Assembly (NCBI GenBank): GCA_951813045.1
Contig: CATOTF010000002.1
Location: 3,968,001 to 4,032,000 of the forward strand
Length of the DNA: 64,000 nucleotides
Direction of reading: 5' to 3'
Source: an uncultured Rhizobiaceae bacterium
GTDB taxonomy: Bacteria; Pseudomonadota; Alphaproteobacteria; Rhizobiales; Rhizobiaceae
Of the stretch, positions 887 to 37,447 are shown in pieces. How positions within the stretch are numbered: the stretch's first letter is position 1; every line of letters begins with the position of its first letter. Under the pieces are notes generated by a model. It was not told the origin of the DNA. It saw only the letters and a list, made by a program, of their open reading frames with translations, and ran no database searches. Position numbers and translations under genes: made by a program.

Positions 887-2113
887 TTAGTCTTTGGTGC
901 CGAGGCTAGTAATTCCGTCTTCGGCGAGTTGTTCTATCTCTTCATCGCTCAAGCCGATGAGACCTAGCACCTGATGGCTGTCCGCCCCCAATGCCGGTGC
1001 CGGTGACCGGAACGCTGTTGGGGTTTTGGAAAAACGGGGTGCCGGTTGTGCCTGACGTAAACGGCCCGCGGTTGGGTGGTCCCATTCCGTGACCGTTCCA
1101 TTGGCGATTGTTTGCGGGTGGTTGATCACTTCACTGCGCGTCAGGACCGGGGCGCAGGGCACGTCATGGGCTTCCAGCCGTTGCAGCCAGTTTTCTGCCG
1201 TATCCGTGAGCAGAACATCCTGCGTCAATTGTAGACGCTCGTCGATGTTTTTACCCCTCAACGCTGCATTTTCAAAGCGCGGGTCGGTGAACCATTCTGG
1301 CTTATTGAGTGCCTGACATAGACCTTTCCACTCCTTGTTCGACTGAACGGCAACGGAGATATACCCGGCCTTGGTTTCATAAATCAGATCAATAAAGCTT
1401 TGTGCGGTTTCTTTGGGTAGCTCATCGCCCACAAATGTGTGGGCACCCATGTCCGATCCCCAAAGGAATGAAACGACCGTATCAAACATGGAGAGTTTGA
1501 TGAGCTGGCCTTCGCCCTTTTCACGCCCGCCGGTGCGTTCTCGGTGAAAGAGTGCCGCCGTTACTGCCTGGCTCGCCGCGTAACCCGTCAGCTTATCCGG
1601 AACGATTGTTCGCACGAGGCGTGGCCGGTTTTCATCCGAACCCCCTTGCACAGTGGTCAGGCCCGACAAAGCTTGAACCAATGGGTCATAAACCGGCTTT
1701 TGTGCATAAGGCCCGGTGTCGCCAAAGCCGGAAATTGAAACATAGATCACAGATGGATTGACCTGCTTGATGGCGTCATATCCAACGCCTATTCGGTCAG
1801 CCACTCCAGGCCTGAAATTTTGAACGATAATGTCCGTGTCTTTTGCCAGCCGTTTGAAAATCTCGACGGCTTTAGGGTTTTTCAGGTTCAACGCAAGCGA
1901 TCGTTTGTTGCGATTATTATTGACGAATGAGGCCGACATGCCGTTGCGTTTTGTTGATACCGCCCGCGTGTGGTCGCCCCCATTGGGGTTTTCCACTTTG
2001 ATCACATCTGCCCCTTGATCGGCCAACATCAGTGTTGTTGTTGGCCCGGATATCATCGATGTCAGATCGAGAACCCGGATGCCGTGTAACGGACCTTTTA
2101 AACTGGATGTCAT
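887..2113 (-). CDS. CaiB/BaiF-type family III CoA transferase
   Basis: A 408-residue class III CoA transferase, which moves CoA between two carboxylic acids. The N-terminal block GIRVLDLTSMISGPTTTLMLADQGADVIKVE is characteristic, followed by NKRSLALNLKNP and the YDPLVQALSG region that lies near the nucleophilic aspartate in this family. The chosen ATG at 2113 gives the usual N-terminus and has a GAGA about nine bases upstream; a GTG at 2140 would add nine residues. The acid cannot be read from sequence. It is divergent from the TRAP operon, with starts about 115 bases apart, so it may handle an acid imported by that transporter. Confidence 0.88.
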   Translation of the reverse strand: MTSSLKGPLHGIRVLDLTSMISGPTTTLMLADQGADVIKVENPNGGDHTRAVSTKRNGMSASFVNNNRNKRSLALNLKNPKAVEIFKRLAKDTDIIVQNFRPGVADRIGVGYDAIKQVNPSVIYVSISGFGDTGPYAQKPVYDPLVQALSGLTTVQGGSDENRPRLVRTIVPDKLTGYAASQAVTAALFHRERTGGREKGEGQLIKLSMFDTVVSFLWGSDMGAHTFVGDELPKETAQSFIDLIYETKAGYISVAVQSNKEWKGLCQALNKPEWFTDPRFENAALRGKNIDERLQLTQDVLLTDTAENWLQRLEAHDVPCAPVLTRSEVINHPQTIANGTVTEWDHPTAGRLRQAQPAPRFSKTPTAFRSPAPALGADSHQVLGLIGLSDEEIEQLAEDGITSLGTKD

Positions 2114-2227
2114 GGTAAATATTCTCGAATTTTGTATCACTCTTTAGGTCGATATTTGACAGGTGTGCCAAATTAAACAAGTTTCTGGCAAAATTAGGCG
2201 GGCAAATGCCTGTGAGGAGTGGACGTA

Positions 2228-2824
2228 ATGGACAGGCTTTTAACAGCCATTTTGGGCATCCTGATGCCGATTAATTCTTTCATCTTGCGGGTGGGCCGGA
2301 CGATTGCCTGGGTCGCACTGGCGCTCATGGTGTTCGTGATTCTGCTGCAGGTGTTTTTCCGCTATGTGTTGAACAGCGCTTTACCCTGGCCGGATGAAGC
2401 GGCACGATTTTTGATGTTATGGATGACCGGACTGATCGCGCCATCCGCCTATCGCTGGAGCGGGTTTGTCGCTATTGACATGGTGCCCGCAGCCATGCCC
2501 AAACGCAGTGGTGCCTTGCTCATGATGGTGTTGATGGTCCTGTCAACTCTGGTTCTGGTCATGGCAATCAGTTTCGGCTGGAGCCATACGATGGGTTTTG
2601 GCGGTAATTTTGAATCTTCATCCCTTCGCGTTCCGCTCGACTGGGTTGGAGGTGAAACGTTCAAAGTGAAATTACGATATATGTATGGTTCACTGCTCCT
2701 CGGCATGATCCTGCTTTTGGTGATCAATGTTGAGCTAATCCTTCGTTCCTGCCTGACACTCATCAACCCGGAAGCAGCACTGCCGGACGATGGTTCGGCC
2801 AATATGATGGCGAGGGCAGACTGA
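2228..2824 (+). CDS. dctQ: TRAP transporter small permease (DctQ family)
   Basis: A 198-residue inner-membrane protein with four predicted hydrophobic segments, the small membrane subunit of a tripartite ATP-independent periplasmic (TRAP) transporter. The motif FFRYVLNSALPWPDEAARFLMLW is typical of DctQ. The ATG at 2228 is preferred because GAGGAG at 2214-2219 lies eight bases upstream; a GTG at 2219 overlaps that ribosome site. It overlaps the large permease start (TGATG). It should act with the large permease and the binding protein at 5400. Confidence 0.9.
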   Translation: MDRLLTAILGILMPINSFILRVGRTIAWVALALMVFVILLQVFFRYVLNSALPWPDEAARFLMLWMTGLIAPSAYRWSGFVAIDMVPAAMPKRSGALLMMVLMVLSTLVLVMAISFGWSHTMGFGGNFESSSLRVPLDWVGGETFKVKLRYMYGSLLLGMILLLVINVELILRSCLTLINPEAALPDDGSANMMARAD

Positions 2825-13196: not shown

Positions 13197-16100
13197 ATGA
13201 CACTACGCTTTTTCTCCGATAAAAACAGGCCGCCCCATATGGGGCCGTATCCGCTTGAGAAATTAGCACGGCATCAGGGTGCTCCCGATTTCAAAAACTG
13301 CCCTACGTATCGTCAACTCAGTTTCAGACTGCCGGAAGCGCCCACGTCGATTATCAATGGGATGGCAGAACATCAGGCAATGCTTGATGCTATTCGTGGC
13401 GGGTTGGTCAACAAGGCACGGGCAGAGTGCTCCGCTGACCCCGACGAGCGGGCGCATCATTTAAAATCATTTGGATATTTTTGCGATGCAGCCATGATCG
13501 GCACCTGCAAGCTACCAGATGAAGCATTGCTGGATGTGCCAATCGTAAATCCGGATATTGATAAGCTTGCCGAAGACTTGCGAACGCGGCAAACAAAAAC
13601 GCTGGCGGCAGGTATCGACCTGATCATGGCCGATCTTCGGGATTCCATGAACGCCCCACCCACAACAATTGACAGCCACACTCATGCAATTGTGTTCCTG
13701 TACGAATACCCGCGCGACCCGGAAGCCGATGAATCAGGGTCCGGTTGGATCATGGATGCGCAAGCCCATCGTGCCTGTCTGCTGGCGTCAGAAACATCGA
13801 CGGTTATCGCTAATTATATCCGCCTTTTGGGATATGATGCGCGGGCTCATACGGGGACAACAAGCGATGTGGATTTAAATCGGCTAGTCGTCGCTGCCGG
13901 TCTTGCCACCGTTGAAGACGGCAAATTGGTAAATCCATATATCGGAGGCCGGTTTGGCGTGGGTGTGGTGACCACTGAGTTTGAGTTTTCAGCCGACCAG
14001 CCCCTGGTGCCTTTGGCCCAACAGGACCGTTCCAAGACCCATGGAACGGCCTGGAAGTTCGGAAAAGGCTTTGCAAAAAACGCCTATAATTATGTACCTT
14101 ATGCCAAACGGCGATTTGTCGATGGCAACCAACCGTTTGAAAAACTAAAACGTGTGGATGTGCCAACCACCTATATGGATGAAGCGCGTATTGCGCGGGT
14201 TCCCAAACGAACGGATATGTTTGCCCGGGCGCAATTTGGGGACATGGGTAAACCCCTTCAAGATGGCGCCAAAGGCGGGCATTATGTGCGCAAAGCCGCA
14301 CCGTCTACCGCACAAAGAAGGGCGCTTGGTGCATTTGTATTGTTGCAGGACGGACAGGCGGCAGAAGAAAAAGTCAGATTTGATCCGCAAAAAGCGGCAG
14401 AACTTGTCAAGGCAACAGGCTATTTTCTGGGTGCCGATGCCATGGGTATTTCGCGATGCCCAGAATGGGCGTGGTATTCCCATGATGCGGCCGGAGAAGT
14501 GATCGACCCGCCCCATGATCAGGCAATCTCTATGATTATCGATCAGGGTTACAGCACGATGGACGGGTCATCGGGGGATGACTGGATTGCCGTTGCGCAA
14601 TCCATGCGTGCTTACCTTCGATTTTCCCTTCTTGGGGGTGTGATCGCTAAACAGATCAGAAACCTGGGATATAAGGCCAAGGCACATTCGGTGATGGATG
14701 GTGAAGTGCTGCAACCACCGCTTTTGCTTTTGTCAGGCCTTGGAGAAGTGTCGCGGATTGGCGAAGTAATCCTCAATCCCTATCTTGGGCCGCGGCTAAA
14801 ATCCGGCGCGGTCACCACCGATCTGCCGATGGCCCATGACAAGCCGATTGATTTCGGCCTCCAGAAATTTTGCGAGAGCTGCAATAAATGCGCCCGTGAA
14901 TGCCCATCCGGGGCAATTACTGCTGGCCCGAAACTGATGTTCAACGGTTATGAAATCTGGAAGTCCGACAGTCAGAAATGCGCGACCTACAGAATCACAA
15001 CCGAAGGTGGCGCCATGTGCGGTCGGTGTATGAAAACCTGCCCGTGGAACCTTGAAGGTTTGTTTTCAGAAAAGCCGTTCCGCTGGGCCGCGATGAATGT
15101 TCCCGCAGCCGCGCCCGTTCTGGCAATACTGGATGATGCGGTTGAAAATGGCGCTTTGAACCCGGTAAAGAAATGGTGGTGGGATCTGGAAATCAGCGAG
15201 GATGGTGGTTACCGGCCAACGGATAAACCGGTCAACAAACGGTCGCTGCAAAAAGACCTTGATCTTAAATATGAAGATCAAACCTTGGCCGTTTATCCGG
15301 CAAACCTTGCTCCACACCCTTATCCCTATCCGTTTCATATGGATCGGGAGGCAGGTATCGAAGCCTATCAGGCGATGATTACCGCTAAAGAATATAAGGC
15401 CCGTCTGGAGCGTAATGAAACCGATGGTCTGGACCATATTTACACTGCTGATGGGGAAAGCCCCGTTATTCAGGTGGAGATCACAAAGGCCGAAAAAATG
15501 ACGCCGGATGTGACCCTTTATGAGCTGCAATCCGTATCGGGCGAGAACCTACCGGAATGGCAGGCGGGGGCGCATCTTGATATTGTCGTTGCGCCGGAAT
15601 TTCTGCGGCAATATTCCATGAGTGGTAACCCGGCAGACCGGTCAAAGTATCAAATTGCCGTGCTGCGCGAAGACAAAGGGCGGGGCGGGTCGATTCTGAT
15701 GCACCGTATTTTTACCGAAGGGCGCAAGATTTTTACATCACGCCCCATTAATCATTTTCCTTTGATGGAAAATGCACCCCGGTCTTTCCTGATGGGGGGC
15801 GGTATCGGCATCACGCCGATGATCGCCATGGCCCACGAACTTCATAAAAAGGGTGATGATTTTATCCTTCATTATTCAAGCCGCTCGCGGGAGCAGGCTG
15901 GATTTTTGGAAGATTTATCGGGTTTTCCATGGGCCGACAAAATTATCTATCACTTTAGTGATGACGGCAGTCGCGCCGTGATGGATGATATTTTCCAAAC
16001 CTATGAAGAAGGATGGCAGGTTTATACCTGTGGCGCCGACCGTTATATGAATTCCGTTCTGGAAGCGGCGGAAAAGGCTGGTTTTCCCGAGGATAATAGA

Positions 16101-16412
16101 CATTTGGAATATTTCTCGGTTCCCGAAGTGCCGGACTGGGTCAACCATGATTTTACGTTGAAGCTCGCTCAATCCGGTAAGGAGTTTATCATTCCTGCAG
16201 GAAAAGCGGCGACCGATGTTCTGGTGGAAAACGGATTTAAAATTGACGTGAAATGTTCTGATGGAATTTGCGGTGTTTGCAAATGCGGCCTGGTTTCCGG
16301 CGAAGTGGAGCACCGTGACTTTGTTCTTTCAAATAAACAAAGGCAAAATGAAATCATCCTTTGCCAGTCGCGGGCCGCTGAAGAAAACGGGGTCGTCGAA
16401 GTCGATATGTGA
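13197..16412 (+). CDS. rdhA: Self-sufficient reductive dehalogenase fused to flavin/ferredoxin reductase
   Basis: A 1071-residue fusion. Residues 1 to about 690 are a reductive dehalogenase (RdhA): a cobalamin-binding region ending in NPYLGPRLKSGAVTTDLP, then two [4Fe-4S] sites, CESCNKCARECP at 559 and Cys595 with CGRCMKTCP from 608. From about 730 there is a phthalate-dioxygenase-reductase-like module: RQYSMSG (flavin site, 804), MGGGIGITPM (nicotinamide site), and a plant-type [2Fe-2S] ferredoxin with CSDGICGVC at 1020 and a later ILC. This matches the catabolic, oxygen-tolerant RdhA type known from Nitratireductor (NpRdhA) and Comamonas (BhbA), where NADPH electrons reach cobalamin within one chain. 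There is no Tat signal and no rdhB anchor, so it is cytoplasmic. Substrate unknown; brominated or chlorinated phenols are typical. It needs imported or made cobalamin. Confidence 0.92.
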   Translation: MTLRFFSDKNRPPHMGPYPLEKLARHQGAPDFKNCPTYRQLSFRLPEAPTSIINGMAEHQAMLDAIRGGLVNKARAECSADPDERAHHLKSFGYFCDAAMIGTCKLPDEALLDVPIVNPDIDKLAEDLRTRQTKTLAAGIDLIMADLRDSMNAPPTTIDSHTHAIVFLYEYPRDPEADESGSGWIMDAQAHRACLLASETSTVIANYIRLLGYDARAHTGTTSDVDLNRLVVAAGLATVEDGKLVNPYIGGRFGVGVVTTEFEFSADQPLVPLAQQDRSKTHGTAWKFGKGFAKNAYNYVPYAKRRFVDGNQPFEKLKRVDVPTTYMDEARIARVPKRTDMFARAQFGDMGKPLQDGAKGGHYVRKAAPSTAQRRALGAFVLLQDGQAAEEKVRFDPQKAAELVKATGYFLGADAMGISRCPEWAWYSHDAAGEVIDPPHDQAISMIIDQGYSTMDGSSGDDWIAVAQSMRAYLRFSLLGGVIAKQIRNLGYKAKAHSVMDGEVLQPPLLLLSGLGEVSRIGEVILNPYLGPRLKSGAVTTDLPMAHDKPIDFGLQKFCESCNKCARECPSGAITAGPKLMFNGYEIWKSDSQKCATYRITTEGGAMCGRCMKTCPWNLEGLFSEKPFRWAAMNVPAAAPVLAILDDAVENGALNPVKKWWWDLEISEDGGYRPTDKPVNKRSLQKDLDLKYEDQTLAVYPANLAPHPYPYPFHMDREAGIEAYQAMITAKEYKARLERNETDGLDHIYTADGESPVIQVEITKAEKMTPDVTLYELQSVSGENLPEWQAGAHLDIVVAPEFLRQYSMSGNPADRSKYQIAVLREDKGRGGSILMHRIFTEGRKIFTSRPINHFPLMENAPRSFLMGGGIGITPMIAMAHELHKKGDDFILHYSSRSREQAGFLEDLSGFPWADKIIYHFSDDGSRAVMDDIFQTYEEGWQVYTCGADRYMNSVLEAAEKAGFPEDNRHLEYFSVPEVPDWVNHDFTLKLAQSGKEFIIPAGKAATDVLVENGFKIDVKCSDGICGVCKCGLVSGEVEHRDFVLSNKQRQNEIILCQSRAAEENGVVEVDM

Positions 16413-16580: not shown

Positions 16581-17687
16581 GTGCCTAAAGACCCATTTGG
16601 AAATCGCGAGAAGTCCAGGCGCAAACTGCCGCGTATGATGTTTGATTTCATTGATGGTGGTACGGGCTTTGATATAGCACAGGATGAAAACCACAAATCT
16701 TTTCAAAGTATTGCGCTTAAATCCCGTATTCTGCGCAATGTTGAAAACATCTCTACCGAAACATCATTTCTAAGCCACGAGTACGGAGTTCCATACGGCA
16801 TTGCGCCGATGGGGATGTGCAATCTTATTTCTCCCAAAGCTGATGAATTCATTTCAATCGAAGCCTGCAAACGGAATTTGCCGCATTGCGTTTCAACGGC
16901 TGCATCAACCACATTGGAACAAACCTTCAAAGATGCAAATGGTAATGCGTGGTTTCAGCTTTATGCAGGGTCTGATGACAGTGTTACATTTGAATTACTC
17001 GACCGAGCGCGGGAAGCTGGGTTTCAACATTTGGTTTTTACAGTAGATACCCCAAGACACTCCCGCCGCACACGGGATTTAACAAATGGATTTTCGGTGC
17101 CATTAAAAATAGGTCCAAGACAGTTTTTTGATTTTGCCCGCCATCCTGTATGGACAATACGCATGTTGATGGCCGGTGCGCCAACACCGATGAACTACAA
17201 AACCTCTTCAAACGGAGCAAAGTTTATACGCAGCGACAGCCGCGGCGCCTCCGACTGGGATTTTCTCGACCGACTCCGAAAAAGGTGGAACGGACATTTG
17301 CTGGTCAAGGGGGTTAATTGCGTTGATGACGCGGTGAAGTTGAAGAATGCAGGTGTGGACGGAATTTACGTTTCCAACCATGGGGGCCGTCAACTTGACA
17401 GTGCACGACCGGCCATCGATGTACTACCGGATATTCGGGAGGCGATTGGAGAAACGTTTCCAATTGTGTTTGATAGTGGCATCCGGTCGGCCGATGATGT
17501 TATTCGCGCGCTGGCAAAGGGTGCAGATTTTGTTCTGATAGGACGGCCCATACTTTATGCGCTCGGGGCGGGTGGGAAAAATGGGCTGACAGTGTTTTTG
17601 AACCGGCTTGATGAAGATTTAAAGTCGGTCATGGCACAAATTGGTGTCACCAACATTGGTGCAGTGAATCGGCAAAATATTTCATGA
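16581..17687 (+). CDS. FMN-dependent alpha-hydroxyacid oxidase/dehydrogenase
   Basis: A 368-residue TIM-barrel flavoprotein of the lactate/glycolate/mandelate oxidase family, which oxidises a 2-hydroxyacid to a 2-oxoacid. Conserved blocks are RRKLPRMMFDFIDGG at the N-terminus, YGIAPMG, FQLYAGSD, FTVDTPR, LLVKGV with the flavin-contacting lysine, the active-site VSNHGGRQLD (His267 and the following arginine), and DSGIRSADDV / LIGRPILYALGAGG for FMN phosphate. It is the first gene of a tight operon with a thiamine-diphosphate enzyme, which could decarboxylate or condense its oxoacid product, as in the mandelate pathway. The GTG start gives the usual N-terminus. Confidence 0.9.
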   Translation: MPKDPFGNREKSRRKLPRMMFDFIDGGTGFDIAQDENHKSFQSIALKSRILRNVENISTETSFLSHEYGVPYGIAPMGMCNLISPKADEFISIEACKRNLPHCVSTAASTTLEQTFKDANGNAWFQLYAGSDDSVTFELLDRAREAGFQHLVFTVDTPRHSRRTRDLTNGFSVPLKIGPRQFFDFARHPVWTIRMLMAGAPTPMNYKTSSNGAKFIRSDSRGASDWDFLDRLRKRWNGHLLVKGVNCVDDAVKLKNAGVDGIYVSNHGGRQLDSARPAIDVLPDIREAIGETFPIVFDSGIRSADDVIRALAKGADFVLIGRPILYALGAGGKNGLTVFLNRLDEDLKSVMAQIGVTNIGAVNRQNIS

Positions 17688-17702
17688 AATGGAAGTTATA
17701 AG

Positions 17703-19427
17703 ATGAGTGAGACTCCCAAGATCAGAGGCGGCAGCCTATTGGCTCGCGCGTTGGTGGACAAAGGTGTCGACCATGTTTTCACCCTTGCTGGTGGATTTTG
17801 TAATCCGGCACTTGAAGGGTTCATGGAATGCCAAATGCCAGTGATCAACTGTCCTCATGAACAGGTGGCTGGCCACCTCGCTGACGGGCATACCCGCATT
17901 ACCCGAAAACCGTCGGTCTGCCTTGTTGGCCCCGAAGGGTTCGCGAACGCGGTACCAGCAATGCTTGAAGCTATGGGTGAACGTACACCGGTGGTATTCG
18001 TTACCGGCTCATCAACTCTGAAGCGTCAGGGGGCCGGCGGGTTTAAAGAAATTGATGATGTGGCGATCGCCGCGCCGCTTTGTAAGTACTCCGCACAGAT
18101 TACGGATGGGGAAAGGATTGGTGAATTTGTCGACCGGGCGTGGACCGCTGCGACTACAGGCTATCCTGGGCCAGTTCATTTGAGCCTGCCTGTTGATATC
18201 ATGTTCTCTTCGTTCGATGAGGATGCTGGCCTGGAGGAAAGACCGTTCCACTTTCGCCCAAGATCGATTCCACGCGCCTGGCCAGACCCCACCGCATTAA
18301 CGGCAGTTATCGACAAATTGAAAAAGGCCGAACGCCCGGTCATTATCGGCGGCCATGGTATATGGTGGTCGGGTGCGGAAGCAATTTTGGCAGACGCGGG
18401 ACGAGAAAGACGCATCCCCATATTCAACGTACCCTATCATACCAAATTATTGGGAGAAGAGGTTGAAGCTTATATGGGGCTTGCTGATTTCCATCAATAT
18501 CACCCGTCAAAACCCGCCATCCATGAAGCTGACCTGGTGTTAATGATCGGCGGGCGGCTGGACAATCAGATGAACTTTGGTAACCCGCCATTCTTTAAAA
18601 AAGAAACGACGCTTGTGTGTATCAACGGCTCTCACGAAGAGCTGGAGTATAATAGGGCGGCGGATATTCTTTTGCTGAGTGACCCGGGCGCGTTTCTGGA
18701 AGCGGTTTGTGACGTGGAGAAATCTTGGCCGGACTGGTTCCGTGTGAACAAAAAACGTCGTGGGGCATGGGTAGATGAATGGGAAGCCCATATTGCCGAT
18801 GAAACAGCGAAGGATGCAGGTGGAAAAATGCATCCATTACAATTGGCACTTGATGTAAATAGCGCACTGGGTGGTGAAGACTGGTTGATTTTCGACGGTG
18901 GTAACACGCACTTCTGGTCAGAAATTGCCGTTAACATGGCCGGTTGGCGCGGTCAGAAACTTGGCGGCATCATGCATCCGGGAAACTATAGTCTTTTGGG
19001 TGTTGGTGTTTCCTTTGCCCTTTCCGCCAAAGCAACCCACCCGGATAGGAACGTGGTTCTGATATCCGGTGACGGCGCGTTTTTATCCGGTGGCTTGTCC
19101 GTTGAAACGGCATTTCAGGAGAATCTGCCAATCACAGTCGTCATCGATAACAATGGTGGATTAGACTGTATCAGCCAGCAACAGGAGCGGCTATTTTCAT
19201 CTGGCAAACATTTCGCCACTGACTTCCGAGACATCCCCTTTCACACGCTAGTTGAAGGCCTTGGGGGACACGGAGAACTCGTAGAAACACGCGATCAACT
19301 TCAGCCGGCTCTGGAAAGGGCAATGGCGTCGGGTAAAACGGCGTGTGTTAATGTAAAATGTCGTGGTGTTATCAGCCCGATAGTCGCCGCGACATCTGAT
19401 AAGCGCGATAAAGCATCCATAGAGTAG
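17703..19427 (+). CDS. Thiamine-diphosphate-dependent lyase (acetolactate synthase-like)
   Basis: A 574-residue three-domain enzyme of the acetolactate synthase / benzoylformate decarboxylase family. Glu53 in CPHEQVAGHLADG is the glutamate that activates the cofactor. The cofactor site is ISGDGAFLSGGLSVETAFQENLPITVVIDNNGG (GDG at 456-458, closing NN). The N-terminal domain also has TGYPGPVHLSLPVDI. It starts 15 bases after the hydroxyacid oxidase and lacks a small regulatory subunit partner, so it is probably catabolic rather than a branched-chain amino acid enzyme. Candidate activities are 2-oxoacid decarboxylase or 2-hydroxyacyl-CoA lyase; the substrate is unassigned. Confidence 0.85.
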   Translation: MSETPKIRGGSLLARALVDKGVDHVFTLAGGFCNPALEGFMECQMPVINCPHEQVAGHLADGHTRITRKPSVCLVGPEGFANAVPAMLEAMGERTPVVFVTGSSTLKRQGAGGFKEIDDVAIAAPLCKYSAQITDGERIGEFVDRAWTAATTGYPGPVHLSLPVDIMFSSFDEDAGLEERPFHFRPRSIPRAWPDPTALTAVIDKLKKAERPVIIGGHGIWWSGAEAILADAGRERRIPIFNVPYHTKLLGEEVEAYMGLADFHQYHPSKPAIHEADLVLMIGGRLDNQMNFGNPPFFKKETTLVCINGSHEELEYNRAADILLLSDPGAFLEAVCDVEKSWPDWFRVNKKRRGAWVDEWEAHIADETAKDAGGKMHPLQLALDVNSALGGEDWLIFDGGNTHFWSEIAVNMAGWRGQKLGGIMHPGNYSLLGVGVSFALSAKATHPDRNVVLISGDGAFLSGGLSVETAFQENLPITVVIDNNGGLDCISQQQERLFSSGKHFATDFRDIPFHTLVEGLGGHGELVETRDQLQPALERAMASGKTACVNVKCRGVISPIVAATSDKRDKASIE

Positions 19428-19439
19428 GGCTACAATCTA

Positions 19440-19781
19440 ATGGCAATCATCACATCTCATACGCTCAACGGGGTAGATGGCTCCCATGGCGGCGGGATAG
19501 GGGTTACTTTAATGCGGATGGGTAGTGACGATGCACTTGTCATTTCACAATCTGACGAGGGTGGCCGCCTGTCAATTGAGGTTGTTCCAGAATTAATCGA
19601 CACACAAGCGCAATATGAACTGGTATTCCAAACACAGAATTATTGGCGAGAACGCGGCATTACATCTGAGAATATTATCGCTGAGATTATATTACGGTTT
19701 AGAATACCGGATACTGACGGGCGATATCATATGCCTATAATTATCTCACCCTATTCCTATTCAACCTGGAAGTCAGAATAG
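19440..19781 (+). CDS. Divergent transthyretin / 5-hydroxyisourate hydrolase-like protein
   Basis: A 113-residue protein with the layout of the transthyretin-related HIU hydrolases: SHTLNG near the start (matching THVLD), GGRLSIEV in the middle, YELVFQTQNYW, and RYHMPIIISPYSYST at the end. True hydrolases finish with Tyr-Arg-Gly-Ser, of which the arginine and serine matter for catalysis. Here the end is Trp-Lys-Ser-Glu, so the chemistry may differ. No other urate-pathway gene is in the window. It is packed between a thiamine-diphosphate enzyme (12 bases before) and a DmdA-like gene (4 bases after), which suggests hydrolysis of a pathway intermediate rather than purine breakdown. Confidence 0.75.
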   Translation: MAIITSHTLNGVDGSHGGGIGVTLMRMGSDDALVISQSDEGGRLSIEVVPELIDTQAQYELVFQTQNYWRERGITSENIIAEIILRFRIPDTDGRYHMPIIISPYSYSTWKSE

Positions 19782-19785
19782 CCCA

Positions 19786-20898
19786 ATGTCATCTGGCCTG
19801 TTAATGACGCGTCGGATTCGGCGCACACCCTATACCGCAAAAGTTGAGGCAGCGGGCGTTCGGGGGTTTACCGTTGTCAACCACATGTTGTTGCCAAAAG
19901 CATTCCAGCCAAGTCTTGAAGACGACTATTGGCATTTGCGAGAGCATGTCCAACTTTGGGATGTTTCCACACAACGGCAGGTCGAAATTAAAGGGGCGGA
20001 TGCCGCTAAACTTTGCCAGTGGATGACGCCACGTAATCTCTCGAATGCAAAACCCGGTGATTGTCTTTATGTACCATTGATCGATGAGAACGCCGGGATG
20101 GTCAACGACCCGGTCCTTTTGAAACTGGCCAATGATCATTTTTGGCTCTCAATTGCAGATTCTGACGTTCTGTTATGGACTAAAGGGTTGGCATTAGGGA
20201 AGGGATTTGAAGTATCCATAGGAGAACCGGATGTTTCGCCTCTCGCCGTTCAAGGACCGAAGGCAGAAAATTTGTTGGCCACCCTGTTTGGGGAGAACAT
20301 TCGAAAACTGCGATTTTTCAAGTTTGGCTGGTTTGAGTTTGAGGGGACAAAACAATTAATTGCCCGTTCCGGCTACTCAAAACAGGGCGGATTTGAAATC
20401 TATCTGAACGGTTCGCATTTAGGAGAAAAACTCTGGGATACAGTTTGGGATGCCGGGTTGGAATTCAACATAAGGCCCGGTTGCCCAAACCTCATCGAGC
20501 GTATTGAAGCTGGCCTTTATTCCTATGGCAACGAATTTACCTTCGATAATAATCCGCTGGAATGCGGGTTGGGCACCTATTGTGAACTTGATGGTGATTT
20601 TGACTTCATCGGGAAGTCGGCGTTGAAGAAAATTGCAGACCAAGGCCCTGCGCGCCAAATGCGGGGGGTGGTGTACGGCGCAGAAAAACTACCCGGGGTG
20701 GCGATACCACTTTCTGTATTGGTGGAGGCGAAAACGGTCGGGCAAATTACGTCCGGTGCCTGGTCTCCGCGCCTGAAACGCAATATCGGCACGTCAATGA
20801 TTGACGCAGGATATTGGAATGTTGGTCAACCGGTTATCGTTGTCGACGCTGCAGGACAAAAACATGATGGCGAAGTTATCAAGTTACCGGTGAGTTAG
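19786..20898 (+). CDS. dmdA: DmdA-like tetrahydrofolate-dependent demethylase (GcvT family)
   Basis: A 370-residue aminomethyltransferase-fold protein that resembles dimethylsulfoniopropionate demethylase DmdA more than glycine-cleavage T protein. Shared features, from recollection of the Ruegeria protein, include RRIRRTPYTAKVEAAGV, NHMLLP, AGMVNDPV, SPLAVQGP, SGYSKQGGFEIY, GCPNLIERIEAGL and NPLECGLG; the length also matches (about 369). DmdA moves a methyl group from the substrate to tetrahydrofolate. None of DmdB, DmdC or DmdD is nearby. The last gene of its operon, it may act on a different methylated compound. Its stop lies nine bases from the convergent TRAP permease. Confidence 0.75.
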   Translation: MSSGLLMTRRIRRTPYTAKVEAAGVRGFTVVNHMLLPKAFQPSLEDDYWHLREHVQLWDVSTQRQVEIKGADAAKLCQWMTPRNLSNAKPGDCLYVPLIDENAGMVNDPVLLKLANDHFWLSIADSDVLLWTKGLALGKGFEVSIGEPDVSPLAVQGPKAENLLATLFGENIRKLRFFKFGWFEFEGTKQLIARSGYSKQGGFEIYLNGSHLGEKLWDTVWDAGLEFNIRPGCPNLIERIEAGLYSYGNEFTFDNNPLECGLGTYCELDGDFDFIGKSALKKIADQGPARQMRGVVYGAEKLPGVAIPLSVLVEAKTVGQITSGAWSPRLKRNIGTSMIDAGYWNVGQPVIVVDAAGQKHDGEVIKLPVS

Positions 20899-20907
20899 TT
20901 TAGCATT

Positions 20908-22176
20908 CTATTGCAGCACCGATGGCAGCCAGGTTGCGGCTTTTGGCAAAAAGATCATCAGCACGCCGTAGGCAACTCCGACCATAACAAACAAGGGTAC
21001 TTCTTTAAACGCCTTGTCTGCGCTTTCCTTGATGACACCAGCGGACGTATATATTCCCACACAGACCGGCGGTGTGATCATGCCGATACCAGCGAAGGCG
21101 ACGAATACAACATAGAGGTGGAGAATATCGAGCTTCAAAGAAAAGACGATCGCTGCGAAGATCGGAACCGTCAGATAGAACACAGGGACAATTTCGATAA
21201 AGGTGCCGAGTATCAGGCAAATGACTGCGAGCGTAAACCAGAACATCAATGGTGAATCGCCAAAGATAGTGAAGTAAGAAATAATAGCCTGAGGCACCTG
21301 ACTGTAGGTCAGCACGACCGACAGGAACGTGGCCATTGCGATGATCGAGAAAATTACCGCTGTGATTGCAGCTGTTTGGCGTAGTGACTCGATTACCCCC
21401 GAGACGGTCAATTCCCGATGCACCAGAAACCCAATGAGGATAGCCCAGATACCCGCAACCGCTGCTGTTTCAGAAGGTGTCATCAGACCAGCGTAAATTC
21501 CGCCCAAAATAATGATCGGCGTGACGAGGCTGGGGATCGCTTGCCAGAACGCCACAAGCTTTTCCCTGCCTGTAGCTCTTTTTGAGCTGCGCAGGTCGCG
21601 ACATTTCCAAACCACGAGAATGACGAGAAAGAAAAGTAATATCAGACCGGGGATGGCGCCCGCAGCAAATGTTTTTGACACTGGAACATTCGTCAATGCG
21701 CTGAACAGGATTGCAGCATTAGAGGGAGGAATGAGCGACTCCAAAAGGCCAGCGGAGGCGGCTAGAACGATAACAAACGGCTTTGGATACCCTTCCTCGA
21801 TCATTCTCGGCATCATAATGGTACCAACTGCGGTAATCGCGGCAAGGATTGAACCGCAAAATGCCGCGAAAAAACCCATGGCCAGAACCATCCCGATGCC
21901 CAACCCTCCAGGCCAATGACCAACTAATGCCACTGCAAAATTGACCAGCCGCCCGGCCATGCCACCGCGCAGCATGACCATGCCGGCAAATATGAATAGC
22001 GGAACGGCGACGAGGACATGTTTGGTCATTGAGCCGAACGAGACCTGGATCAATGTTGACCAGGGCAGGTTAAGCGCAAGGATGGCGGACATGGCGCCGC
22101 CAATACCAAAGACGAGAAAAATGGGTATACCGAGCGCAAGGAGGACAAGGCCAACGAGTGAAGCAACAAGGTTCAC
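20908..22176 (-). CDS. dctM: TRAP transporter large permease (DctM family)
   Basis: A 422-residue multi-pass membrane protein of normal DctM length. Visible family blocks are PLFIFAGMVMLRGGMAGRLVNF, GMGFFAAFCGSILAAITAVGTIMMP, SLIPPSNAAI, GLMTPSETAAVAG and GMITPPVCVGIY. It overlaps the small permease by four bases. Together with 22173-22703 and 22783-23817 it forms a second complete TRAP system, convergent with the DmdA-like operon. Confidence 0.93.
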   Translation of the reverse strand: MNLVASLVGLVLLALGIPIFLVFGIGGAMSAILALNLPWSTLIQVSFGSMTKHVLVAVPLFIFAGMVMLRGGMAGRLVNFAVALVGHWPGGLGIGMVLAMGFFAAFCGSILAAITAVGTIMMPRMIEEGYPKPFVIVLAASAGLLESLIPPSNAAILFSALTNVPVSKTFAAGAIPGLILLFFLVILVVWKCRDLRSSKRATGREKLVAFWQAIPSLVTPIIILGGIYAGLMTPSETAAVAGIWAILIGFLVHRELTVSGVIESLRQTAAITAVIFSIIAMATFLSVVLTYSQVPQAIISYFTIFGDSPLMFWFTLAVICLILGTFIEIVPVFYLTVPIFAAIVFSLKLDILHLYVVFVAFAGIGMITPPVCVGIYTSAGVIKESADKAFKEVPLFVMVGVAYGVLMIFLPKAATWLPSVLQ

Positions 22177-22703
22177 GCCATCACCTCCTCTTTTTGCGCC
22201 CCTTCATCCGGCATGCTCAACAGTTCTGCCAAAAACAACTCCAAAGCAAATAGGGCAAGAATGGTAAAGCCCACCGGAAAGGCGGCGTATAAATACCAAA
22301 TGGGAAATTCTACTTCGAGCTCTACAACCTGTCCGAGTTGGCGGAACAATTGTACTGCGTCCAAACTCGCGACAACGAAAACACAGGCGGCAAAAAAAGT
22401 AGTTACAAATGTAAACAAGCGAAGGCGTTTTCTTCCAACCTCACCTACGTAGGCTTGTGCTACATCAACGCTGATATGAGAACCGGATTTCAGGAGTGGG
22501 CCCAATTGGGGAAAGACAAGCCATGGGACCAACATAGGCGGCAGTTCGATCAACCAGTCATACCCGATGCCGGTGAGATATCGCGTTGCTGCGCTGGCAG
22601 TCAGGGCGCAAACGATAACGGCGACAAGAAATATTCCCAATACAGATGACAGGGTGCTGATCAGTCTGTTGACTGTTCGCAGCCAGATCAGAATAAATAC
22701 CAT
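22173..22703 (-). CDS. dctQ: TRAP transporter small permease (DctQ family)
   Basis: A 176-residue membrane protein with four hydrophobic segments and the region YLTGIGYDWLIELPPMLVPWLVFPQLGPLLKSGSHISVDV, where DctQ proteins carry their conserved mid-protein segment. It ends in an acidic cytoplasmic tail. The four-base overlap with the large permease points to translational coupling, and the binding-protein gene lies 79 bases upstream on the same strand. Confidence 0.88.
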   Translation of the reverse strand: MVFILIWLRTVNRLISTLSSVLGIFLVAVIVCALTASAATRYLTGIGYDWLIELPPMLVPWLVFPQLGPLLKSGSHISVDVAQAYVGEVGRKRLRLFTFVTTFFAACVFVVASLDAVQLFRQLGQVVELEVEFPIWYLYAAFPVGFTILALFALELFLAELLSMPDEGAQKEEVMA

Positions 22704-22782: not shown

Positions 22783-23817
22783 TTATTTTACGAAGTTGCG
22801 TGCTGCCTCCAACACGCTTTCGTCAAACAGGTCTTTCATTTCAGGCACAACTTTATCTGCCATCATGGTGTCGAACTCTGCCTTCGCGTCGCCCGCTAAT
22901 GTGATAACGGTGCCGCCACGTTTCTTAAATGCCGCGATAGTCTTGTCGCCGGTTTCTAGAATTGTTGCGGTTGACAGGTTACCCATTTCCTTGCCGACAT
23001 CTTTGAGTATTTTTTGCAGCTCTGGGTCAAGCGAATTGAACCAGGTGGAATTTGCCATCACATAAGCATCAGAAAAGAACTGATAGGGAAGTTGTGCGTG
23101 GTTGAGATATTCCCACCAGCTGTATGCTTCAACACTTCCTGGAGGCGTGTTGAGCGTGTCAATCAGGCCAGTTTGCAATGAGGTATACACTTCACGTGTA
23201 GGAAGGGAGACCGCATTCGCACCCATTGCGGACCAACGGGGGCGCTCACTCTTAAGCAATGCCCGGGCTTTGAGCCCTTTCATTGCAGCAAGACTGTCGA
23301 GTGGTTTGCCCGAGAACGTCATAACCGGGCCAACCGGATCGTACATCAAAAGTGTCGTATTGGTTTTCTTTGTAATATCGTCCCAGAGCTTTTTGCCGAC
23401 CGGGTCTGTATTAAAAAAGTTTCTCTGCTGCTCATAACTCTGAAAGAGCTGAGGAAAGGCGGCAACATTGTAGTTCTTGTTGATCGGTGGAAATGACACA
23501 ATTGGCACAATCCCGCCCATTTGAACCGCACCCGATGTTACGCCACCCAGGATTTCGCGAATACCGAACAGTTGACCCGATGGAAAAACTTCGATTTTCA
23601 GTTTACCGGCAGCACGTTTGTTGACTTCTTCAGCAAATAGTATGGCATGTTTTGCACTGTGGTGTTTCGGGTTCCAGTGGAACGCCAGTTTAGCAACGAT
23701 TTCTTCAGCCTGTACCTGAGTCGATTGCAAGCCGATGGAAACGAATGTTCCTGCAGCCAGAGCAACGGCCAATGATAATTTGGTAAAGGTGCGGCGGTTG
23801 TTTTTAGTGTGTTTCAT
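22783..23817 (-). CDS. dctP: TRAP transporter substrate-binding protein (DctP family)
   Basis: A 344-residue periplasmic solute receptor with a signal peptide (KHTKNNRRTFTK, hydrophobic core, then VQAEE). Family features are KLAFHWNPKHHSAKHAILFAEEV, PSGQLFGIREILGGVTSGAVQMG, GLKARALLKS with an arginine at the carboxylate-binding position, and REVYTSLQTGLIDTLNTPPGS. ATG 23817 is preceded by GGGAGG; the open frame extends 50 codons further but without features. First gene of the second TRAP operon. The ligand is unknown but probably an acid linked to the neighbouring oxidase/lyase/demethylase operon. Confidence 0.92.
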   Translation of the reverse strand: MKHTKNNRRTFTKLSLAVALAAGTFVSIGLQSTQVQAEEIVAKLAFHWNPKHHSAKHAILFAEEVNKRAAGKLKIEVFPSGQLFGIREILGGVTSGAVQMGGIVPIVSFPPINKNYNVAAFPQLFQSYEQQRNFFNTDPVGKKLWDDITKKTNTTLLMYDPVGPVMTFSGKPLDSLAAMKGLKARALLKSERPRWSAMGANAVSLPTREVYTSLQTGLIDTLNTPPGSVEAYSWWEYLNHAQLPYQFFSDAYVMANSTWFNSLDPELQKILKDVGKEMGNLSTATILETGDKTIAAFKKRGGTVITLAGDAKAEFDTMMADKVVPEMKDLFDESVLEAARNFVK

Positions 23818-24063
23818 GTCTAGTCCTCCCATTAAATTGCGAGCCATCATTGGCGGCTCGGTGTCTGGTGTAGGTTGGCGCCTATTCGTCTTGTTGAATA
23901 AACAATACGGAACCACACAGAACCAGAGCTCAAATATGTTTCGATGATATCTAACAACCGAACTCATTTGAACGAGCGCCGTCTATTCGCGAATACCCCA
24001 AAAGTCTAAGAAAAATTCATTCATTCAACAAATAAAGAATATTGGGCGAGTGATGCAATTTCC

Positions 24064-24978
24064 CTATGGATTAGTCGTCGATGCCTTCTGGTTCTCCAGA
24101 CGTTCGGCGAGAATCTCAAGCAGTTCCTTCGCTTCCATTGAAAGCGTGTTGCGCCCCTTTGTAATAATCGAAACATGATAGGAGAGTGGTTGCCTAATTG
24201 GGCGCGCCTTTACTCCCCCGATAGCAATCGCCAGCCTGGCAGAAAAAGGGTCCACTATGGAAATCGCGCCGCTTTCGCGCGTTAGTGCAGCGGCTGCCGG
24301 CATATTGGTGGCGCTGATGCGAGAATTGTCACGAAGACGGCTGGATAGCTCGCCGTCCATTCCAGACATTTCGTCAGGAAATGCGCCGCCAAACGTTATA
24401 AAACTCTCATTTTGTGCCAATTCATCGAGATCGACCGCACCCTCATTTTGAGCATGATCATGGTCATCACGAAAAAGACAAACATAGGGGAAACGGGATT
24501 CGAACAGAATCTCAACCCCTTCATAGGGTGGTTCTCTGCCAACAATGCCAAGATCAAATTGTTGTAAGCGCACGGCGTCCACGATCGCTGGAGTGTTGCG
24601 CGTCGAAAGCATGAAGCGAATATCTCTTCGAGCCTTGTACAATTGCGCAACAGATTCCGGTAAGACCGACTGGGAAAATGTCGGGATTACGCCAATAGAG
24701 ACAACACCACCCGCGGTTGTCTGGATAACTTTTGCCAACTCGCTTAATCGATCGATACCCATAAATACAGAATCGACAGCTTGATAAAAACGCCGGGCTT
24801 CTACCGTTGCAACAAGCCCTCGCCCCTGGCGCAAAAACAGAGCAAATCCGACCGAACGCTCCAAATCCGCGACCAACCTGCTAACACTTGGTTGAGAGAC
24901 GTGAAGTGCCTGAGAGGCCGCAGTAATGGAGCCTGTTTCTATTGTCGCCCGAAACGCTTCAAGTTGCCGAAGATTCAT
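24064..24978 (-). CDS. LysR-family transcriptional regulator
   Basis: A 304-residue LysR-type activator/repressor. The winged helix-turn-helix fills the N-terminus (NLRQLEAFRATIETGSITAASQALHVSQPSVSRLVADLE), followed by a periplasmic-binding-protein-like sensor domain (VVSIGVIPTFSQSVLP ... LGIVGREP). It reads in the same direction as the TRAP operon with 246 bases between, and is the obvious candidate regulator of that transporter and of the convergent catabolic operon. Confidence 0.92.
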   Translation of the reverse strand: MNLRQLEAFRATIETGSITAASQALHVSQPSVSRLVADLERSVGFALFLRQGRGLVATVEARRFYQAVDSVFMGIDRLSELAKVIQTTAGGVVSIGVIPTFSQSVLPESVAQLYKARRDIRFMLSTRNTPAIVDAVRLQQFDLGIVGREPPYEGVEILFESRFPYVCLFRDDHDHAQNEGAVDLDELAQNESFITFGGAFPDEMSGMDGELSSRLRDNSRISATNMPAAAALTRESGAISIVDPFSARLAIAIGGVKARPIRQPLSYHVSIITKGRNTLSMEAKELLEILAERLENQKASTTNP

Positions 24979-34961: not shown

Positions 34962-36545
34962 CTATGCAGGGCGCATTTGTTCCCTTGGCAGGTGGATCGC
35001 GAATCGCTCCCGTAACTCCCGGTCGATCACCTCTTCAACGTGATCTGGAAAAAACTCTTCAAGCACTTTGCGTTTGCGCTCAATGGCCAGTTTAATAATG
35101 TCGGGTTTACCCAGTTCAGCCCATTCTTTCGGGCTGAATCGGTTTGCCAGATCGGGATAGAAATAATCCTTCTGCATCAGGTCCAGAGTCTGACCGTGGC
35201 CGAGATAATGGCCGGGACCATCCACACATACATCGCGCATGGCGTCGATTGAGAGTGTCGATTCGTTTACTTCGATACCGCGCACACAGCGCATGGCTTG
35301 TCCAAGCGCGTCATTATCAAGAAACAGGCTTTCCAGACAAAAACCCATTAGCGAACCATGCATACCGGCCGCCTCATAAACCATATTTGTACCAGCCATG
35401 CCCGCAAGAACATAGGCGATACCTTTTTCCCAACCGGCCTGGATATCGGGCATTTTTGCATCGCACATGCCTGCAGCTGACCCGCCCGGCAGGTCATAAT
35501 AATTCGCCATCTGGCCACATGCAGCGGTGAGCAGCGCCTGTTCACCGGAGCCCCCGGACATGGCGCCTGTGCGCAGGTCGGACACAAATGGCCATGTGCC
35601 AAATATCGCCGGATGACCGGGAACCAACGCGTTGACATAAACCAGTCCTGCCAAAACCTCAGCCGTAGCCTGAACCACTGCGCCAGCGATTGCTGCAGGT
35701 GCCGTGGCACCCGCCTGCCCGGCCGAAAGAAGCAAAACCGGCAAGCCGCCTTTCACACATTCTTCCAACACATCGCAGGCGTCCGCAGCAAAACGTAGCG
35801 GCGGCACGACGAAACAATTAGAGTTTGAAACAAATGGGCGAGCCCGGAAGGCCTCTTCGCCACCGGCAACCTTATACATCATCTCCAACGCTTCCGGCAC
35901 ATATTCGGCCAGCGTAAAAGATGTACCAACATGTTTGGTGGTGCCGGAGAGGCAGGCGTATAAAGTGTTCAAATCCATTTCTAGCGGATCGATAACATCC
36001 CGCGCCACCATGGGGCGCTGGAAGAAATGGATATTATCGAGACCCTCAACAATGCGGGCTGCATCATAAACATCGCGCAAATAGCTTTCGCGATATTCAT
36101 TTTTCTCCACGTCGACGACGTGAACAGCAGCACCAGCCGTTCCAAAATGAACCTTATTACCATTGGGATGGAGGTCGTGTTTGGGGTCACGACCATGGAG
36201 GGCAAAATCCCTATTGGCATTTTTAACCGTATCAAGAACAACATTACGGGGGAAACGGAGCCGGCCGTCGTCACTCATAATGGCGCCGACCCGTTCGCAG
36301 GCTTCGATACAAGTTGGGGTCGCCTGCGACAGGCCGATATTCTCCAGAACATCGAGAACAGCTTCATGGATTTTTTCAACATCAATGTCTGAAAGGGGGC
36401 GGTAGGTTCCGCCCTGCATTCCGGCCCTAACGGGACGAACATCTTCTGTTAGGGGAGCTGCCCGCATATCGCGGCGGGCCTGTCTGCCACCTGCGCGGCC
36501 TGATCGTCTGGGTTGAGGTGTTGGTGTTTCTTCCACAATGCTCAT
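34962..36545 (-). CDS. mttB: MttB-family methyltransferase, non-pyrrolysine type
   Basis: A 527-residue member of the trimethylamine methyltransferase (MttB) superfamily with an arginine-rich N-terminus (RRSGRAGGRQARRDMRA) and a TIM-barrel core. Archaeal MttB needs pyrrolysine from an in-frame amber codon; this gene has none. It therefore belongs with MtgB-type proteins, of which one demethylates glycine betaine to dimethylglycine using a corrinoid partner. The second ATG (36545) is chosen since GGGAG precedes it by six bases. It is the last gene of a six-gene operon with two dimethylglycine-dehydrogenase-like proteins, which would process a dimethylglycine product. A corrinoid protein is not encoded nearby. 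Confidence 0.85.
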   Translation of the reverse strand: MSIVEETPTPQPRRSGRAGGRQARRDMRAAPLTEDVRPVRAGMQGGTYRPLSDIDVEKIHEAVLDVLENIGLSQATPTCIEACERVGAIMSDDGRLRFPRNVVLDTVKNANRDFALHGRDPKHDLHPNGNKVHFGTAGAAVHVVDVEKNEYRESYLRDVYDAARIVEGLDNIHFFQRPMVARDVIDPLEMDLNTLYACLSGTTKHVGTSFTLAEYVPEALEMMYKVAGGEEAFRARPFVSNSNCFVVPPLRFAADACDVLEECVKGGLPVLLLSAGQAGATAPAAIAGAVVQATAEVLAGLVYVNALVPGHPAIFGTWPFVSDLRTGAMSGGSGEQALLTAACGQMANYYDLPGGSAAGMCDAKMPDIQAGWEKGIAYVLAGMAGTNMVYEAAGMHGSLMGFCLESLFLDNDALGQAMRCVRGIEVNESTLSIDAMRDVCVDGPGHYLGHGQTLDLMQKDYFYPDLANRFSPKEWAELGKPDIIKLAIERKRKVLEEFFPDHVEEVIDRELRERFAIHLPREQMRPA

Positions 36546-36583
36546 GTTCATCTCCCAGAACGGTTGAGTAATCTATTGTATCG

Positions 36584-37417: not shown

Positions 37418-37447
37418 TCAATTTCCCTTGACTGTTGCTGATATTGT

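Follow-up and report, generated by a model that had tools for sequence, protein, structure and literature searches.

A recurrent four-gene operon with a DmdA of a separate clade and a divergent HIUase-fold protein, possibly for breakdown of a DMSP-like 2-hydroxy acid

Introduction

Among the closest described systems to the genes studied here is the DmdABCD pathway of Ruegeria and Pelagibacter, in which DmdA, a protein of the GcvT fold, demethylates dimethylsulfoniopropionate (DMSP), converting DMSP and tetrahydrofolate to MMPA and 5-methyl-tetrahydrofolate. Counts of dmdA in seawater serve as a gauge of DMSP demethylation (PMC13360808). Three further enzyme groups come into the comparison: the (S)-2-hydroxyacid oxidases and mandelate dehydrogenase (PF01070), together with glycolate oxidase; the 2-hydroxyacyl-CoA lyase, oxalyl-CoA decarboxylase and benzaldehyde lyase group of thiamine diphosphate (ThDP) enzymes; and 5-hydroxyisourate hydrolase (HIUase; TIGR02962, PDB 2g2n). 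We analyzed a stretch of 64,000 nucleotides (the window) from an uncultured Rhizobiaceae bacterium, contig CATOTF010000002.1, positions 3,968,001 to 4,032,000, in which relatives of all four enzymes are encoded by one operon. We refer to its genes and their products as HAO, THDP, HIU and DMDA.

A sequence-only reading of this DNA had proposed that the four genes combine oxidation of a 2-hydroxy acid, ThDP-dependent C-C cleavage, ring or amide hydrolysis and methyl transfer to folate in a way that matches no known pathway. Our search of the open-licence PubMed Central (PMC) literature agrees, in that it returned no account of the operon, nor of a ThDP enzyme paired with an HIUase-fold protein, though such a search is not proof of absence. 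An article where dmdA and hydroxyisourate occur together treats them as two separate pathways in Ruegeria (PMC13313319). The conserved four-gene breakdown pathway thus appears to be undescribed so far.

Results

Four closely spaced genes at 16581-20898

The list of open reading frames (ORFs) places four genes on the forward strand of the window, separated by 15, 12 and 4 bases:

16581-17687, + strand: HAO, flavin mononucleotide (FMN)-dependent 2-hydroxyacid oxidase/dehydrogenase family (PF01070), 368 aa, GTG start
17703-19427, + strand: THDP, ThDP-dependent C-C lyase/decarboxylase (TPP_enzyme_N/M/C), 574 aa
19440-19781, + strand: HIU, divergent HIUase/transthyretin-fold protein (PF00576), 113 aa
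19786-20898, + strand: DMDA, paralogous DmdA-clade folate-dependent methyltransferase (NF009133), 370 aa

Profile searches agree with the families and spacing first proposed. HAO scored 381.9 against 24.9 bits with PF01070 and reached no NCBIfam cut-off. THDP scored 105.2, 90.4 and 97.8 bits with the N, M and C domains of TPP_enzyme. HIU scored 64.7 bits with PF00576 and stayed below the TIGR02962 cut-off (64.1-65.1 versus 87.45). DMDA scored 138.2 bits with GCV_T (PF01571) and passed NF009133, the 'dimethylsulfoniopropionate demethylase' family (548.8 versus a cut-off of 410).

The four-gene set recurs in other genomes

THDP is the most conserved of the four proteins (nine orthologues are 71-76% identical, with E53 in CPHEQ and GDG...NN invariant), and for that reason it served as the bait for a locus search. 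We recovered 90 loci (L020-L109) through the THDP protein and counted gene order by tblastn, restricting each count to loci whose contig had enough flank; one contig present twice (L029 = L082) and near-copies (L026, L027) were left in for these counts. HIU lies after THDP on the same strand in 82/89 loci, DMDA after THDP in 64/82 and HAO before THDP in 62/82, while HAO and DMDA are each absent from 18-20 of 82 loci. Of the 75 loci with sufficient flank, 50 have all four genes in the order of the window. Across 57 loci (L026 and L029 having been removed), pairwise identities are correlated among the four proteins (r 0.61-0.79), which would be the pattern of a set that travels together, with shared species history contributing.

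Genome samples that were not picked by similarity gave the same picture. With a limit of E 1e-100 and the host counted each time, THDP occurred in 5/150 genomes of the order, 6/385 of the class and 2/398 of the phylum. It occurred in 9 of 198 genomes drawn from one family; within 1.5 kb, HIU and DMDA stood beside it in 9/9 and HAO in 8/9. Every match in the order, class, phylum and family draws scored at least 864 bits. As far weaker matches would have passed the limit, these proteins form a group distinct from other ThDP enzymes. None of the 16 listed genomes of the host's own family holds THDP. Such a rare, patchy and sharply bounded occurrence would be expected of a set moving between lineages. 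A search of plasmids gave no match at E 1e-150, and among viral contigs 27 pattern matches were found, none of them confirmed.

Scanning GTDB species genomes with THDP, we kept the best 80 of 513 related stretches, a choice that leans to close relatives; these 80 come from Proteobacteria plus one Sulfurimonas bin, as named in the records. Among the names are Rhodobacterales, Planktomarina, SAR116, Hoeflea, Labrenzia, Kiloniella, Pelagibius, Granulosicoccaceae and Oceanospirillaceae. Many of the 80 best relatives belong to groups known as marine. The results confirm that the four-gene set is a recurring composition and no chance assembly. The sequence-only reading would have fallen had the homologues been scattered and never found together, and the wide co-occurrence of the four genes, in the full order and in the family draw alike, rules that out.

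DMDA belongs to a separate clade of DmdA and is usually an additional copy

The best solved relative of DMDA is 3tfh, from Pelagibacter ubique. We built a maximum-likelihood tree from 74 rows, 38 of them from operons (35 of these drawn at random from 65). The operon DmdAs form one clade with support 100/99, nested in the DmdA family; a program warning on long branches concerns the distant GcvT rows. The clade forks with the SAR11 (3tfh) and Rhodobacterales DmdAs, and the tree does not settle the inner order of this fork. A single row in the clade, L109, has no adjoining HIU, its HAO and DMDA lying apart on the other strand; because it sits inside the clade, the label 'operon' needs two changes on the tree.

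We aligned 65 of 73 operon-cluster ORFs (330-420 aa, L066 dropped) with the window protein, giving 66 rows. In P. ubique numbering, Y32V and D250E (V31 and E250 of the window protein) occur in 66/66 operon rows, whereas positions 32 and 250 are Tyr and Asp in 21/21 chosen typical DmdAs and in 4/4 outgroup rows (the typical set is without L140, L144 and L148, and L125 and L133 were counted as operon types). The operon proteins keep Y95, D108, S122 and E204 in 66/66 rows and Y206 in 65/66. They share with the described DmdA the GcvT fold, the folate and catalytic residues, and a place within its tree; they differ in forming a separate clade with two substitutions, in being usually a second copy and in standing beside HAO-THDP-HIU. 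Several typical DmdAs instead adjoin an acuI-like gene, recognized by eye. One report names Trp171 as a DMSP-specific residue of DmdA (PMC7487153); residue 171 of 3tfh is Lys in the numbering used here, so the two numberings differ.

In the family draw, 84/198 genomes have a DmdA above the NF009133 cut-off and eight have two, seven of these being operon genomes. A second DmdA above the cut-off thus occurs in 7/9 operon genomes versus 1/75 other DmdA-positive genomes (Fisher p 6e-8, a value that ignores relatedness). These second copies score 499-691 bits, four of the seven at least 600; those under 600 may belong to further DmdA clades. Two or three DmdAs above the cut-off were found in Leisingera (L109), Planktotalea (L037), Silicimonas (L100), Defluviimonas (L036) and two Nioella (L084, L085), and one in Kiloniella (L080). 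In the host genome DMDA is the only one. The host also has a further DmdA-like paralogue below the cut-off (G000:C2:1844730-1845770; 362.5 versus 410 bits), and many genomes of the class sample have DmdA-like copies that likewise stay below the cut-off (336-395 bits).

The position of DMDA inside the DmdA family, with its kept residues, makes folate-linked demethylation of a DMSP-like compound the parsimonious chemistry. Its status as an additional copy and the changes at two otherwise invariant positions suggest a substrate other than DMSP itself. Since this sister clade passes the curated cut-off, its members would be counted among dmdA in abundance surveys.

HIU is a divergent extra copy of the HIUase fold

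HIUases end in YRGS, a motif for which ...YSTYR was seen here. HIU shares with them the fold family and the residues H7, R43 and H97 (kept in 86, 86 and 85 of 86 aligned rows), the catalytic His-Arg-His of HIUase. It differs in its score, in an added His16 that is invariant among the operon proteins and in its tail, where W110 and S112 (a W-x-S tail, 85/86 rows) stand at the place of YRGS; the C-terminal YRGS is missing. A genuine HIUase above the TIGR02962 cut-off is encoded elsewhere in 15 of 16 operon genomes, including the host (G000:C2:762752, 122.5 bits), and the matches under the cut-off, the HIU of the window among them, score 40-76 bits. At least two of the operon's enzymes, HIU and DMDA, are thus re-purposed extra copies of known ones. 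Given the divergence of HIU, its fold allows no more than a guess at ring or amide hydrolysis: the fold family first proposed was borne out, and the hydrolytic role stays at the level of that guess.

HAO and THDP keep catalytic residues of their families

The HAO alignment had 63 rows (62 of 68 ORFs, those over 330 aa, plus the window). Y128, D156, R165, K243, H267 and R270, the catalytic set for 2-hydroxy acids, are kept in 63/63 rows; catalytic His, Arg, Asp, Lys and Tyr are what HAO shares with the (S)-2-hydroxyacid oxidases and mandelate dehydrogenase. It differs from glycolate oxidase in having Phe where that enzyme has the substrate-binding Tyr24: F23 occurs in 56 of the 57 rows with a letter there, and the substrate-binding Tyr was not found.

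The nearest solved relatives of THDP, over nearly its full length, are 2-hydroxyacyl-CoA lyase/synthase, benzaldehyde lyase and oxalyl-CoA decarboxylase, with which it also shares the catalytic Glu. It differs from this group in that its partners act on free 2-hydroxy acids and in its scores: among the 25 NCBIfam matches listed none reaches its cut-off, and the 2-hydroxyacyl-CoA lyase family NF058623 gives 232.8 versus 600. The last seven residues, RDKASIE (window 19404-19424), are invariant in all ten aligned proteins. A role of this tail in active-site closure or in partner binding is possible.

Importer, regulator and variant clusters

The sequence-only reading had the operon converge with a TRAP (tripartite ATP-independent periplasmic) importer and a LysR regulator, and we find these four genes on the reverse strand after DMDA:

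20908-22176, - strand: DctM, TRAP large permease (TIGR00786, 289.7 versus cut-off 268.45)
22173-22703, - strand: DctQ, TRAP small permease (PF04290, 61.5 versus 28.3 bits)
22783-23967, - strand: DctP, TRAP solute receptor (PF03480, 149.2 bits; NF037995, 128.3 versus cut-off 50)
24064-24978, - strand: LysR-type regulator (PF00126/PF03466)

Each of the three TRAP subunits passes some family cut-off, with DctP under that of TIGR00787 (117.7 versus 175.05). Judged from a signal-peptide-like sequence, the real start of DctP is probably the internal ATG of MKHTKNNRR near 23817. DctPQM is probably the importer for the operon and LysR probably its regulator, both by association only. Of the 59 loci whose contig extends at least 4 kb in both directions, 36 have a LysR orthologue (at least 40% identity). 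Orthologues of DctM (70-76% identity) and DctP (57-65%) each occur in 13/90 loci; among the 55 loci with 5 kb or more of flank in both directions, 10 have the two together.

Neighbor clusters were compiled over the 90 loci and one representative of each was checked with hidden Markov models, apart from DppC, which was recognized by eye. The core adjoins importers of at least three types: TRAP (13 of 90 loci), oligopeptide-type ABC genes (16-21) and Tct (TctA in 9). The other recurrent neighbors are Peptidase_S51 (17), MttB-like (13), Ldh2-like (10), acyl-CoA dehydrogenase (8), ketopantoate-reductase-like (8), FAH-like (7), enoyl-CoA hydratase (7), SBP56 (7) and GlcD-like FAD oxidase (4) genes. 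SBP56, of the superfamily of methanethiol oxidase, lies 51, 90 and 135 bases from HAO (L048), LysR (L081) and DctP (L064), 845 bases from DMDA (L075), and 2.2-2.4 kb from a LysR gene in L037, L041 and L100. Two of the 22 genomes searched encode a cupin of the DMSP_lyase family right next to the operon DmdA, and 13 of the 22 have a PF16867 protein somewhere. The cupin of L034 passes PF16867 (52.7 versus a cut-off of 27 bits) and is a predicted DMSP lyase. Near-identical 199-aa cupin ORFs lie, all on the - strand, at 13166-13765 in L034, 8794-9393 in L035 and 13166-13765 in L037.

The composition of the operon itself varies. HAO-THDP-HIU with TRAP occurs without DMDA in L056, L081, L092 and L096. 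TctA-THDP-HIU-GlcD-like-TauD without DMDA occurs in L041 and L067, and in L106 TctA and the GlcD-like gene accompany THDP-HIU; L067 holds its TctA form beside the HAO form. In four loci the GlcD-like FAD oxidase stands beside THDP in place of HAO. The L056 and L067 genomes have one DmdA above the cut-off elsewhere. L069, a SAR116 single-cell genome, encodes PhyH-PhyH-THDP-HIU, a small NTF2-like gene and a formate-dehydrogenase-type molybdopterin oxidoreductase, with neither HAO nor DmdA; L071, also from a SAR116 single cell, resembles it by gene length and place, the HMM check covering L069 only. THDP and HIU emerge as the firm core, joined by oxidizing enzymes that differ among the variants, with DMDA frequent and not universal.

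Discussion

The evidence narrows the class of chemistry fairly well: a 2-hydroxy acid would be oxidized, its C1-C2 bond cleaved with ThDP and a methyl group passed to folate from a DMSP-like donor. The kept catalytic set of HAO and its replacement by a GlcD-like oxidase in four loci both count for the oxidation step, and the SBP56 neighbors and the DMSP_lyase-family cupin are sulfur signs that count for a sulfonium substrate. We tentatively read the operon as devoted to the catabolism of a dimethylsulfonium acid that resembles DMSP and bears a 2-hydroxy (or 2-oxo) group, a reading that we hold to be possible and put forward with reserve. The expectation of a methylated, carboxylated marine substrate survives as the best class, and many of the relatives' groups are known as marine; for the specific compound we have a candidate. 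The operon also points to a methylated compound, so far unrecognized, as a substrate of Rhodobacterales, SAR116, Planktomarina, Granulosicoccaceae and Oceanospirillaceae.

Our leading guess for a single substrate, weaker than the reading at the level of the class, is 4-dimethylsulfonio-2-hydroxybutyrate (DMSHB). It fits because it is DMSP plus one carbon and a 2-hydroxy group. It is described as a DMSP precursor that both algae and bacteria produce (PMC5395565, PMC13360808). It is also said to be perhaps prominent in seawater, with its decarboxylating enzymes unidentified in bacteria such as L. aggregata (PMC11306096). That the operon is a widespread system for uptake and breakdown of DMSHB, or perhaps of 4-methylthio-2-hydroxybutyrate (MTHB), with HAO, THDP and HIU doing the oxidative decarboxylation and DMDA serving the hydroxy compound, we consider rather unlikely in this full form. 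In the course that we propose for the class-level reading, the acid would be imported by TRAP in the host and by other importers elsewhere. DMDA would transfer one S-methyl group to tetrahydrofolate (THF), yielding a methylthio 2-hydroxy acid and 5-methyl-THF; HAO, with FMN, would oxidize the 2-hydroxy acid to the 2-oxo acid; THDP would cleave the C1-C2 bond of the latter; HIU may act as a hydrolase on the THDP product or on a cyclized by-product; and the C3 methylthio product would enter general metabolism. The sequences show the gene order, its conservation, the catalytic residues, the extra copies and the clade; the order of steps, like the substrate and the function of HIU, is what we infer, and DMDA may instead act after THDP. 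A described counterpart is DsyD, the DMSHB decarboxylase domain of DsyGD, which acts at the DMSHB C1-C2 bond as proposed here; it differs in having the PF04115 fold, in being fused to a methyltransferase and in serving DMSP synthesis (PMC11306096). The same article reports R. pomeroyi to be without DMSHB decarboxylase activity. If the DMSHB route were true, algal sulfonium sulfur would have one more fate in addition to the demethylation and the cleavage of DMSP.

Several observations weigh against the sulfonium reading and its DMSHB form. HIU has no clear task in the scheme, and no HIU was detected with THDP in six of 90 loci (L073, L079, L088-L091; several of these lie close to the end of a contig). 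The variants without DMDA disfavor demethylation as an obligatory first step; moreover, the genomes of L081, L092 and L096 carry no DmdA above the cut-off despite a complete HAO-THDP-HIU-TRAP set, which means that DMDA is not required to demethylate the imported acid. The TauD/PhyH oxygenases and the MttB-like, Peptidase_S51 and oligopeptide-type importer genes of the variants are left unexplained. No aldehyde dehydrogenase or CoA ligase was recognized among the clusters present in at least four loci (by eye where unscanned). The sulfur signs are also imperfect: SBP56 matches PF05694 with 688.3 bits and falls far below the MtoX family NF052453 (155.9 versus a cut-off of 650), and the host genome is without a PF16867 protein. 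We considered the neighboring acyl-CoA dehydrogenase and enoyl-CoA hydratase genes as DmdC and DmdD and found no support, there being no DmdC- or DmdD-named relative among the solved structures listed. A DsyB-like gene, sought through PF00891 only, occurs in 1/20 operon genomes. With this count and no PF00891 methyltransferase in the host, DMSP synthesis finds no support as the general role of the operon, as far as the PF00891 route goes. The single DsyB-like MTHB methyltransferase lies at 1372-2481 (- strand) of L157, from Labrenzia sp. DG1229, whose genome holds both THDP-HIU forms; it scores 385 bits to 7wdq ('SAM-dependent MTHB methyltransferase') and 7wdw ('DSYB').

Other readings were weighed against the same evidence. 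DMDA could be a redundant demethylase for ordinary DMSP, sharing a transcript by historical accident with three genes that act on an unrelated 2-hydroxy acid; it does pass NF009133, it is the host's only DmdA to do so, and HAO-THDP-HIU exists without it. We find this account unlikely, as seven of nine operon genomes already have a second DmdA above the cut-off, the clade-specific Y32V and D250E occur in every one of the 66 rows, and the linkage with THDP-HIU is kept across records named for alpha- and gammaproteobacterial groups. A betaine-like N-methyl substrate, arriving maybe as a peptide-like conjugate, with DmdA shifted from sulfonium to ammonium chemistry, is favored by genes that stand beside the operon (MttB-like in 13/90, Peptidase_S51 in 17, oligopeptide-type ABC in 16-21, ketopantoate-reductase-like in 8, FAH-like in 7), and the window has its own MttB/dimethylglycine-dehydrogenase-like set at 34962-43265. 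The tree nests DMDA among sulfonium demethylases, however, GcvT-fold proteins that take N-methyl groups are known to work with an oxidase domain, and the MttB set, which most of the 90 loci do not have, may belong to another pathway; we think an N-methyl substrate improbable.

More doubtful still is a C2 unit, for which dimethylsulfonioacetate (DMSA) or a similar betaine would be demethylated by DMDA and the C2 acid oxidized to glyoxylate, which THDP would join or cleave in the manner of glyoxylate carboligase. Among the best 60 of 140 solved relatives of THDP, glyoxylate carboligase comes last, with 98 bits versus 217 for 2-hydroxyacyl-CoA lyase/synthase; THDP keeps Glu53, which glyoxylate carboligase lacks; and no hydroxypyruvate isomerase or tartronate semialdehyde reductase was recognized among the annotated neighbor clusters. 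What speaks for it is that HAO, GlcD-like and TauD/PhyH genes can each adjoin THDP-HIU and that all of these could yield a small 2-oxo acid. ThDP lyase and DmdA have no place in known purine catabolism, and a ureide or purine-side pathway, in which HIU still opens the 5-hydroxyisourate-like ring of a methylated purine, is very improbable: the His-Arg-His set of HIU is kept, yet the genuine HIUase lies elsewhere in 15/16 genomes, the operon copies are among the matches of 40-76 bits, and they have lost the YRGS tail. The fold offers it one point, in that DsyD, the one known DMSHB decarboxylase domain, likewise has a fold of the purine pathway, that of ureidoglycolate lyase (PF04115; PMC11306096). 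For the C2 unit, another article has R. pomeroyi freeing methanethiol from DMSA by an unknown route and reports that DmdA does not recognize DMSA (PMC7221440).

Other features of the window

The reverse-strand set at 34962-43265 consists of an MttB-like protein, a phosphoenolpyruvate mutase-like protein, two FAD-GcvT dimethylglycine-dehydrogenase-like proteins and a homocysteine S-methyltransferase. Scans for promoters and terminators came out near chance (12 found versus 9.9 expected, and 11 versus 10.5 expected). The + strand ORF upstream of HAO (13197-16412) encodes a protein of 1071 aa in which a reductive dehalogenase is fused to flavin/2Fe-2S (ferredoxin) reductase domains. The fusion passes TIGR02486 (205.2 versus a cut-off of 160.35), and its best solved relatives are 6zxu and 4ras. 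We rejected it as a member of the pathway, as it has a match in 1/90 loci, at 28% identity (L095). It is on the same strand as the operon with a gap of 168 bases, so read-through from it is possible in this strain.

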